The position numbers were made by a program, and so were the translations under genes. Positions 12,780 to 16,665 of a stretch of 64,000 nucleotides of DNA are shown piece by piece. Every line of letters starts with the position of its first letter. The first letter of the stretch is position 1. The stretch is from Polychytrium aggregatum (lineage: Eukaryota > Chytridiomycota > Chytridiomycetes > Polychytriales). The notes under the pieces are model-generated. The model was not told the DNA's origin and searched no databases. It saw only the letters and a list, made by a program, of their open reading frames with translations. Location: positions 248,001-312,000 of the forward strand of contig NW_026516236.1 of NCBI RefSeq assembly GCF_025602895.1, written 5' to 3'.

Positions 12780-14162
12780 ATGGGCAAGGAAAAGTCTCAC
12801 ATCAACATTGTCGTCATTGGCCACGTCGACTCCGGCAAGTCGACCACCACCGGCCACATGATCTACAAGTGCGGTGGTATTGACAAGCGTACCATTGAGA
12901 AGTTCGAGAAGGAAGCCGCCGATCTCGGCAAGGGTTCCTTCAAGTACGCCTGGGTTCTTGACAAGCTCAAGGCCGAGCGTGAGCGTGGTATCACCATCGA
13001 TATCGCTCTCTGGAAGTTCGAGACCCCCAAGTACTACGTCACCGTCATTGATGCCCCTGGCCACCGTGATTTCATCAAGAACATGATCACCGGTACCTCC
13101 CAGGCTGACTGCGCCATCCTCATCATCACCGCCGGTGTTGGTGAGTTCGAGGCCGGTATCTCCAAGGATGGCCAGACCCGTGAGCACGCTCTCCTTGCTT
13201 TCACCCTCGGTGTCAAGCAGATGATCGTTGCCGTCAACAAGATGGACACCGTCAAGTACTCTGAGGAGCGCTTCAACGAAATCGTCAAGGAAACCTCCAA
13301 CTTCATCAAGAAGGTCGGCTACAACCCTAAGGCCGTCGCCTTCGTCCCCATCTCGGGCTGGCACGGTGACAACATGATCGATCCCTCCGACAACATGCCC
13401 TGGTTCAAGGGATGGAACAAGGAGACCAAGGCCGGCGCCTCCACCGGCAAGACCCTCCTCAACGCCATCGATGCCATCGAGCCTCCCCAGCGCCCCACCG
13501 AGAAGCCCCTCCGCCTTCCCCTCCAGGATGTGTACAAGATCGGCGGTATCGGCACTGTCCCCGTCGGCCGTGTCGAGACCGGTGTCATCAAGCCCGGTAT
13601 GGTCGTCTCGTTCGCCCCCTCGGGTGTCCAGACTGAAGTCAAGTCCGTCGAAATGCACCACGAGTCCCTCGCTGAGGGTCTCCCCGGAGACAACGTCGGC
13701 TTCAACGTCAAGAACGTCTCCGTCAAGGATATCCGCCGTGGCTTCGTCGCCTCTGACATCAAGAACGACCCCGCCAAGGAGTGCGCTTCCTTCAACGCCC
13801 AGGTCATTGTCCTCAACCACCCCGGTCAGATCGCCGCTGGCTACTCGCCCGTCCTCGATTGCCACACTGCTCACATTGCCTGCAAGTTTGCTGAGCTCGT
13901 TGAGAAGATCGACCGTCGTTCCGGCAAGAAGCTCGAAGACAACCCCAAGTTTGTCAAGTCGGGTGATGCTGCCATCGTCAAGATGATCCCCACCAAGCCC
14001 ATGTGTGTCGAGTCCTTCTCCGACTACCCCCCTCTCGGCCGTTTCGCCGTCCGTGATATGCGCCAGACCGTTGCCGTCGGTGTCATTAAGGCCGTCGAGA
14101 AGACCGACAAGGCTGCCGGTGGCAAGGCTACCAAGGCTGCTGGCAAGGCTGGCAAGAAGTAA
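12780..14162 (+). CDS. TEF1: Translation elongation factor EF-1alpha, intronless coding region
   Basis: This delivers aminoacyl-tRNA to the ribosome as a GTPase. The coding region is one 1,383-nt exon (460 residues). GTPase motifs: GHVDSGKST (residues 14-22), DAPGH (about 91), NKMD (about 153). The opisthokont-type insertion after GWHGDNM is present (around residues 213-240), so this is canonical EF-1alpha and not the EFL paralogue that replaces it in some zoosporic fungi. The C-terminal half has [23 protein letters not shown] and ends in a Lys/Ala/Gly tail. Codon use is strongly biased to C- or T-ending codons (for example GTC, ATC, AAG), unlike its neighbours, which fits very high expression. 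The start ATG has CACC immediately before it. The stop is TAA, and an AATATAATG motif lies shortly after. Confidence 0.99.
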
Positions 14163-14500: not shown

Positions 14501-15931
14501 ATGGGCAACCAGCCATCCACCGCCAAGGAGAATCGGCTCACCGCCGAGCAGATATATCAATACTCGCGCCAGTTCGAGCGTGAGTGTGTCGAGAGCCCTT
14601 TTGCTCGTCGCTGTTTGGGTGCTCATCCGACTGCTAACGCGCCGCTCCCGCCGCAGTCAACATCGCCGAGATCGAGTTCTGCCACCAGCGTTTCCTGAAG
14701 CTCTCGCCCGTGAACGACCAGCGAGCGCTCCCCGAGGGCTCGGAGCAGGTTGACTGGCTGCTGACTCGGGTACGCTGCGTCGGCCGAGTCGTGCGCTGAT
14801 TGTTCTTGGTGGCCGCCCCGCTGACACGCGAGGCCAGGTCTTTGCCCAGCTCTTTGGCGGACAAAGGTCCATATCGTTTCCGCAATTCATGGAAGCAGTT
14901 CGTTCGTGGAGCACGCATCGCATCGAAACCAAACTGGAATGTGAGTACAGGCTCGTGGCAGGGTGGCTTCTTCGGGACGGACTGGCTGAGAACAGACCTC
15001 GCACTCACATCTGCGGTCCGACCGATTGCGGCACTGTGGTAAAATGTCAGTTTTCTTCAAGCTCTTGGACTACGATGGAGACGCCGTCATCAAGATATGC
15101 GATCTGACCGTCCTGATCCAGCAGATTCTCGATTACAATGTGGGTCTGCGACTGGTTTGCATTAAAAACTGGAGCTGGCGAGCTCTCAGGCCGGTCGAGT
15201 AAGTGAGCGCTTCGCATGGTCTCACCGTCGCTCTCTTGATCTCCGGCTGATGCTGCATCGGCCAGTTCAAAGTTGGTGATCGTGTCCGGATACGGAGCAG
15301 TCAAAAAGTCGGGACGCTGGAGTATATCGGGCCAACCAAGTTTGCGCAAGGTATCTGGGGCGGACTCCGACTCGATAGTGCAGGCAAGTGGCCCGTTGTG
15401 TTCGTAAGCTGTTGAGGGGACTCTTGTCCCTTGAGGTGCTCAGCGATAGAGTTCGTCCCGGATCTCAGCATTCCGAGAATCTGGCCGGACAGCAATTTGA
15501 TGCTTGCGTATGACTGCCAGACGGCAAAAACGATGGCACTGTCAAGGGTGTTCGATACTTTACCTGCGAGCCGCAATACGGAATATTTGTGGCCTATCCA
15601 AACCTCGAGCTGGTGAGAGCAAACTTGCCGACCACTGGACTTGATGTGTCGACCAAATTGACTAGAGGTTGTTGGCTGTGAGTATATTCCCTGCCTGGGA
15701 ACTCAAACCTGCGCTCAATTCCAACAGATGGAGCACGTGGCAATGGCAAGATCGATCACGGATCCATTTCAGGGCATGCAAACGGACGCCATCACCATGG
15801 CCGAGTTTGTCGAGACTTTGGCCCAAGACCGAATGGTGCGCGAGCTTCTTGGCAAGCCGATACTTCCAACTGTGCTGCGCGGAAATGGCGGACGGACGGG
15901 GATGCCAGTCGCCGGGGTCGTGCAAAAATAG
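14501..15931 (+). CDS. Calcineurin-B/CIB-like EF-hand protein with inserted CAP-Gly domain
   Basis: Exons: 14501-14579, 14657-14769, 14838-14940, 15051-15139, 15266-15383, 15521-15612, 15728-15931; all phases agree, giving 265 residues. The N terminus MGNQPST fits N-myristoylation. Exons 1-4 give the N-terminal lobe (FCHQRFLKLSP, ISFPQFMEAV) and a third EF-hand with loop DYDGDAVIKICD. Exons 5-6 encode a CAP-Gly domain: FKVGDRVRIRSSQKVG, YIGPTKF, GIWGGLRLD, GKNDG, then VKGVRYFTC. Exon 7 encodes a degenerate fourth EF-hand (DAITMAEFVETL) and the tail. Exons 5-6 total 210 nt with phase-0 borders, so skipping them gives an intact 195-residue protein of normal family length. The intron after exon 5 needs a GC donor (GCAAGT at 15384), which restores the GKNDG motif. 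CAP-Gly domains bind EEY/F tails of tubulin and end-binding proteins. Whether both isoforms are made is unknown. A 12-nt exon at 15666-15677 is also possible. Confidence 0.82.
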
Positions 15932-15986: not shown

Positions 15987-16048
15987 ATGGTGGTGGTGGT
16001 GGTGGTGGTGGTGATGGTGGTGGTGATGGTGGTGGTGGCGGTGGTGAT
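15987..16048. repeat. TGG/GAT triplet repeat
   Basis: An almost pure TGG trinucleotide run is interrupted by GAT triplets. It lies downstream of the EF-hand gene and upstream of the U5 snRNA promoter. Confidence 0.9.
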
Positions 16049-16263
16049 GGCTGATCTGGCCAAGACATGGAATGGATCCTGTCGATCGTCCACCAACAGG
16101 CAGTGCAAGTCGTGGAGGACGATGTCGAGCAAGTTGGACATGCTGACGATGGCGAGCATGTGAGGAATGGCTGCAGTATATCTTGGATGCTAGGTTTGAT
16201 ATTGCGGGATGATACTGGGATGATACTGAGCTGATACCGGGGTAGTATCGGAGTGATTGTCAG

Positions 16264-16301
16264 GTGTGAATGTGTGAATGTGTGAATGTGTGAATGTGTG
16301 G

Positions 16302-16368
<67 letters not shown>
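16264..16368. repeat. (TGTGTGAA)4 followed by (TG)33 microsatellite
   Basis: Four TGTGTGAA-type octamers (16264-16299) grade into about 33 uninterrupted TG units (16303-16368). The dinucleotide tract ends about 108 bp upstream of the TATA box of the U5 gene. Alternating purine-pyrimidine tracts of this length can adopt Z-DNA. Confidence 0.95.
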
Positions 16369-16475: not shown

Positions 16476-16483
16476 TATAAAAG
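16476..16483 (+). promoter_or_regulatory. TATA box of the U5 snRNA gene
   Basis: A canonical TATAAAAG is followed by a GC-rich stretch (GGGCGGGCGGGCGGC). It lies about 25-30 bp before the inferred U5 5' end. Confidence 0.75.
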
Positions 16484-16505: not shown

Positions 16506-16665
16506 GCACCGGCATCCTGCTCGACTTTCTCGCATTCGCACGATTTTTTCGCCTTTTACTAAAAAATCCCGTGTCGGAGAGTCACCAAGAGCAGTGGCCC
16601 ACTTTTTGGAAACCCGTGATGACCCTGCACAGGACAGGACTTCCGCAAGGGAGGACGGTCAGTGA
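16506..16665 (+). ncRNA. U5: U5 spliceosomal snRNA
   Basis: U5 is the core of the U4/U6.U5 tri-snRNP; its loop 1 holds both exons during splicing. Here the invariant loop reads CGCCTTTTACT (16550-16560), closed by GATTTTTT (16542-16549) pairing with AAAAAATC (16561-16568). Below it, GACTTTCTC (16523-16531) pairs with GGAGAGTC (16576-16583) and CTGCTC (16517-16522) pairs with GAGCAG (16589-16594), matching the U5 stem I layout. An Sm-site-like ACTTTTTGG follows (16601-16609). The 3' domain is closed by TGACC (16620-16624) with GGTCA (16657-16661) and capped by CTTCC-GCAA-GGGAG, a GNRA tetraloop. A TATA box lies upstream at the right distance. The 5' and 3' ends are estimates (plus or minus 10 nt). 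Confidence 0.9.

Follow-up and report, generated by a model that had tools for sequence, protein, structure and literature searches.

A gene of Polychytrium aggregatum appears to encode a complete CAP-Gly domain inside an EF-hand protein whose host part is best named CIB-like. It lies on the forward strand at positions 14501-15931 of the window, the stretch of 64,000 nucleotides that was analysed, and its seven exons form an open, spliceable frame of 798 nt, stop included, corresponding to 265 aa, or to 195 aa without exons 5 and 6. The protein is probably a constitutive CIB-like adaptor, with the CAP-Gly domain shuffled into the linker between EF3 and EF4, that links a membrane or a partner to microtubules.

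The initial annotation had placed a complete CAP-Gly domain, including GKNDG, in exons 5 (15266-15383, 118 nt) and 6 (15521-15612, 92 nt), and this was borne out. In a Pfam profile search, residues 131-193 matched PF01302 with 84 bits (E 7.1e-24; curated cut-off 26.5), which is far past chance, and the 70-residue insert is thus recognised by Pfam. A search of PDB sequences with the CAP-Gly part yielded 36 distinct sequences at E ≤ 0.001 (best 3.2e-19). According to both searches, exon 5 encodes the first half of the domain and exon 6 the second. The GKNDG motif stands in the sequence LDSADGKNDGTVKGVRYF, which spans their junction; the intron between them (intron 5, 15384-15520) is a phase-1 GC-AG intron located just before GKNDG.

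As to the other exons, all on the same strand, exon 1 (14501-14579; donor GTGAGT) translates into an MGNQPS start with an N-myristoylation-like N-terminus, exon 2 (14657-14769) into CIB-like N-terminal helices and a degenerate EF1 region, exon 3 (14838-14940) into a degenerate EF2, as judged from PDB matches to CIB/CNB, and exon 4 (15051-15139), which ends in phase 0, into the EF3 loop. Exon 7 (15728-15931, stop included) encodes a degenerate EF4-like segment, with a weak EF-hand-like match, and a C-terminal tail. For exons 1-4, we placed the inner borders at frame-keeping splice sites, the initial annotation having given only those around exons 5 and 6. The latter (15139/15266, 15383/15521, and 15612/15728) were recovered in our gene model, and the calculation that the two exons measure 210 nt (118 + 92) with phase 0 on both sides, so that the protein has 265 or 195 residues, was confirmed. 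The introns are 68-137 nt long and, apart from intron 5, all five are GT-AG; the junction phases are, in order, 1, 0, 1, 0, 1, and 0. Intron 6 has the donor GTGAGA and the acceptor CAACAG, in phase. Two other donors were tried and rejected: with GTAAGC at 15404 the downstream exon lands in another frame, and so does exon 7 with the consensus-like GTGAGT at 15678, inside intron 6, combined with the acceptor at 15727. The model frame had the best coding score among the sense frames in six of the seven exons; in exon 5, its score of -0.32 bits/codon was exceeded by those of the +1 frame (-0.27) and of one antisense frame (0.08). To judge by the domain that it matches, homology shows exon 5 to be coding despite this low score.

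The same gene was present on contig C413, which we took as the other haplotype, with identical layout and protein. The two copies differed at one position of the 798-nt coding sequence, a synonymous SNP in exon 7, and at none in the six introns. The presence of the gene on two haplotype copies argues against an assembly join, while the copies are too alike, with their single coding SNP, to be informative on selection. No paralogue was found in the same genome, where all 10 matches at E ≤ 1 fell on exons of the gene itself in one or the other haplotype. Searches for relatives in two contig collections, neither of them of eukaryotic genomes, gave five stretches fitting one of six peptide patterns in viral contigs and 110 stretches in the second collection, and none of either set was confirmed.

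Directly upstream of the gene is a single open frame (12780-14162, forward strand), which we take to be an EF-1alpha-like gene; a 475-aa open frame on its antisense strand is probably a codon-bias effect. About 590 bases past the stop of the CAP-Gly gene lies a U5 spliceosomal RNA (16517-16634, forward strand; Rfam RF00020, 70 bits), preceded by TATAAAAG at 16476. TGG and TG repeats at 15988-16050 and 16271-16368, between the gene and the U5 RNA, differ in length between the haplotypes.

The genome contained 18 matches to PF01302, which we interpreted as six genes in two haplotype copies. By eye, we took the others to be a p150-like, a TBCE-like, and a TBCB-like gene, plus two at C35:735k and C41. 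The CAP-Gly domain of the window gene was identical to theirs at 32/58 positions (p150-like), 32/61 (C41), 27/54 (C35:735k), 29/64 (TBCB-like), and 22/56 (TBCE-like). In the genes at C35:735k and C41, an intron that we placed by eye falls at the codon position of intron 5 and in the same phase, 1, just before GK. These two genes, whose family is unclear, lie within C35:735200-736200 and C41:83000-84000, and in both the phase-1 intron directly precedes GK[NH]DG. Three of the six CAP-Gly genes thus have an intron before GK; the p150-like and TBCE-like domains are uninterrupted at that site, and the TBCB-like gene has its introns elsewhere. Because of this shared position, exons 5 and 6 look like the usual exon pair of a CAP-Gly domain. 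The homologous introns in C35:735k and C41 also back the GC donor of intron 5. GC-AG introns are described as known, though rare, in fungi (PMC7072748).

The evidence on the EF-hand host was mixed. The PDB matches of the 195-aa form were weak (best E 1.8e-4, calcineurin B), and the best 60 of the 133 matches at E ≤ 1 were spread across calcineurin B, GCAP, CIB, and NCS. With residues 1-128, CALM-1 came first (1.8e-4) and CIB1 was also among the seven matches at E ≤ 0.01. Scored against family profiles (E calculated for an assumed 20000 sequences), the 195-aa form obtained 26.0 bits with CIB (four members), 14.5 with NCS1 (one), 12.3 with CNB/CHP (two), 9.2 with calmodulin (one), and 4.6 with calaxin (one). 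Shuffling tests on residues 1-62 gave p values of 0.001 for CIB1 and 0.002 for CIB2, nominal values of 0.018 for calmodulin and 0.033 for CHP1, and no significant similarity to CIB3 (0.155) or CALM-1 (0.068). Global pairwise Z scores (CNB1 8.2, CALM-1 7.3, CIB1 7.2, CHP1 6.7, NCS1 6.2, CIB2 5.3, CaM 4.9, CIB3 4.2, calaxin 3.4) did not single out the CIB family from other EF-hand families. When human CIB2 was searched against the genome exon by exon, a procedure that handicaps short exons, none of the 14 matches at E ≤ 10 fell in this gene. Pfam EF-hand_7 remained below its cut-off in the protein (18.5 and 19.6 vs 30 bits), and none of the 69 matches of a genome-wide EF-hand_7 search was in this gene. 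The earlier description of the host as calcineurin-B/CHP/CIB-like thus held as regards its EF-hand character in the PDB search and the top rank of the CIB profile, and was not backed by EF-hand_7. On this basis, CIB-like appears to be the best name for the host part rather than a proven membership. The PF01302 match, the CIB profile score, and the single frame joining the two parts support the central proposal, that of a CAP-Gly domain inside a CIB/CNB-like EF-hand protein. Two other identities were considered and rejected: the likely calcineurin B gene is at C113:295742 (52/74 identical to typed human CNB1), and the likely calaxin gene, calaxin having given the lowest profile score, at C223:156718 (53/83 identical to typed human calaxin).

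The EF3 loop, DYDGDAVIKICD, has an Asp at position 12, as in CIBs. According to PMC6107761, an Asp in the last position of the EF3 loop is common to all four CIBs and is linked to Mg2+, and functional EF3 and EF4 are common to CIBs. The loop sequences suggest that EF3 is the sole EF-hand to keep a plausible metal site, for which Asp12 would point to Mg2+. The Ca2+ responsiveness proposed in the initial annotation therefore came out as weak, with a plausible site in EF3 alone but with an Asp12 linked to Mg2+. In a multiple alignment, exon 7 fell on EF4, with a loop about three residues short and devoid of the usual acidic ligands. By its sequence, then, this segment lacks the metal-binding EF4 of CIB type, and for this reason we call the protein CIB-like and do not file it as a CIB.

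Exon 7 alone had no EF-hand match in the PDB; its one match, a phycobilisome linker (E 0.38), was taken as chance. None of nine EF-hand proteins aligned at p < 0.1 with residues 129-195 of the 195-aa form (best shuffle p 0.116). A comparison of exon 7 with part of GCAP1 gave a p value of 0.0065, for a pair that was chosen after the PDB search had already shown the match. The model frame of exon 7 was the best of its three sense frames (0.03 bits/codon vs -0.45 and -0.39). Exon 7 is thus likely to be coding; that it is what remains of an EF-hand is no more than a possibility. The position attributed to the insert, between EF3 and EF4, agreed with the EF3-EF4 linker in the alignment, but the EF4 that follows is degenerate and weakly recognisable.

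Would the cassette be used in only some of the transcripts? Skipping of exons 5 and 6 as a block, which would yield, besides the long form, a CIB-like protein of 195 aa that lacks CAP-Gly, would keep the frame, and the donors of intron 5 (GC) and intron 4 (GTGGGT) deviate more from GTGAGT/GTAAGT than those of introns 1 and 3 do. The donor of intron 2 (GTACGC) deviates from this consensus no less, however, and yet there is no cassette there, and the two exons would have to be skipped jointly, since neither 118 nor 92 nt is a multiple of three. Furthermore, 6 of the 15 contiguous internal exon blocks of the gene can be dropped in frame, so that the pair 5-6 is not special and its frame neutrality, which the initial annotation had read as a pointer to alternative splicing, is no argument for it. 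The short introns suggest intron definition. PMC3925392 gives exon skipping an average share of 3% among the alternative splicing events of 23 fungi, a figure that we extrapolate to this organism, and names intron retention as the commonest type (61%). Such a splicing switch appears quite unlikely to us. That intron 6 is retained, or is no intron, is also unlikely, though a little less so: the protein would then stop after the CAP-Gly domain, at a TGA in 15679-15681 (198 + 22 residues), and exon 7 would lie outside the main protein. The 22-codon extension into intron 6 is open, the homology of exon 7 is almost undetectable, and retention is the event type that predominates in fungi; against this stand the in-phase donor and acceptor of intron 6, its score in this frame (-0.32 bits/codon over its whole length vs 0.03 for exon 7), and the synonymous nature of the sole coding SNP, a single site in exon 7. 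Retention of intron 4 would introduce a stop at 15200-15202.

It is very improbable that exons 5 and 6 form part of another gene, nested in this one or overlapping it. Introns do bound the domain on both sides, but an in-frame stop (15248-15250) lies upstream of exon 5 with no ATG after it, and exons 5-6 match exons 4 and 7 in phase 0, on the same strand and with the same layout on both haplotypes. We infer that a spliced seven-exon transcript exists.

In the constitutive adaptor that we favour, exon shuffling would have brought the CAP-Gly domain into the EF3-EF4 linker in the form of two exons, bordered in phase 0 and still separated by their original phase-1 intron. The symmetric borders would be better read as the trace of this event than as a sign of isoforms, and the presence of the GC-AG intron 5 at a position common to two other CAP-Gly genes fits with exon shuffling. 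The CIB-like part would hold a membrane or a partner helix. MGNQPS fits the N-myristoylation consensus, and the CIB family is known for a myristoylated N-terminus; the N-terminus of the host is probably N-myristoylated, to judge from these letters. The CAP-Gly domain would grip alpha-tubulin by its terminal EEY, or tails of a similar kind, so that the partner would be linked to microtubules. An alpha-tubulin of the same genome ends in EEAEEY (C132, C375) and is a potential ligand; this end was seen in two of nine tubulin matches, the remaining ones being cut by introns or frames with their tails out of view. Genes with an EB1 domain are present too, their tails likewise out of view. CAP-Gly domains bind the EEY/F tails of alpha-tubulin (PMC10404244).

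According to PMC7343241, CALM-1, a CIB, is required in worms for the interaction of ankyrin with TMC-1. By the same logic, whatever partner the CIB-like part of the window protein binds would be connected to microtubules. We did not retain a tether to a TMC channel: neither the TMC domain (PF07810) nor the integrin beta domain (PF00362), found in partners of animal CIBs, was detected in the genome, and as neither was detected in any of 14 control genomes, which leaves no positive control, this does not establish a genuine absence. As to a link between CIB1 and stathmin, CIB1 was not named in the part of the literature covered. The genome has IFT46-family genes, so the organism is probably flagellated. 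A more elaborate scheme, possible but doubtful, is that a zoosporic organism fused a CAP-Gly tether into the CIB subunit itself to form a metal- and membrane-regulated link between a membrane protein and tyrosinated microtubules, in which the metal state would act through an EF3-EF4 hinge on how far the CAP-Gly domain is exposed.

Should the transcript prove real, two well-studied adaptor modules would be combined in one small protein, which raises the testable question of whether the CIB-like part gates or aims the CAP-Gly domain. The gene would also be a neat candidate, from outside animals, for a domain having entered the linker between EF-hands through exon shuffling. Such a fusion of EF-hands with CAP-Gly would be unusual. 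This architecture was absent from the titles and abstract starts of the covered part of the literature on CAP-Gly proteins and on CAP-Gly with EF-hand, calcineurin B, domain architecture, and chytrids, and from the parts seen of PMC5955475, PMC3499766, PMC1434745, PMC3583065, and PMC12084551, the first of which deals with fungal CAP-Gly proteins and mentions no EF-hand in that part. The earlier statement that no such protein has been described stood for this literature, mostly titles and abstract starts; the architecture may be annotated elsewhere.

The protein resembles the CIB family (CIB1, CIB2, CIB3, and C. elegans CALM-1) by Asp12 of EF3, non-canonical EF1 and EF2, and its size without the insert (195 vs 187-191 aa), and it shares with CIB2 the MGN start and the spacing T.EQ...Y......N...I...H.RF..L.P. 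It differs from this family by the insert of 70 residues that places CAP-Gly between EF3 and EF4, in their linker, by the extra C-terminal tail, and by an EF4 loop that is shortened in the alignment and lacks the usual ligands. It has a complete CAP-Gly domain with GKNDG, like p150Glued, CLIP-170, TBCB, TBCE, and KIF13B, which have coiled-coil, LRR, ubiquitin-like, or motor parts and are not known to have EF-hands. Spectraplakins such as ACF7 have EF-hands beside a microtubule-binding module, the EF-hand-GAR module. The microtubule-binding fold of spectraplakins is unrelated and stands side by side with the EF-hands, whereas the CAP-Gly domain of the window protein is inserted. In the CALM-1/CIB2 system with ankyrin and TMC-1 (PMC7343241), a CIB adaptor likewise connects a cytoskeletal tether with a protein of the membrane. 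There the tether is a separate protein, ankyrin, while in the present case it would be built in; a TMC domain did not turn up here, in the search that had no positive control.
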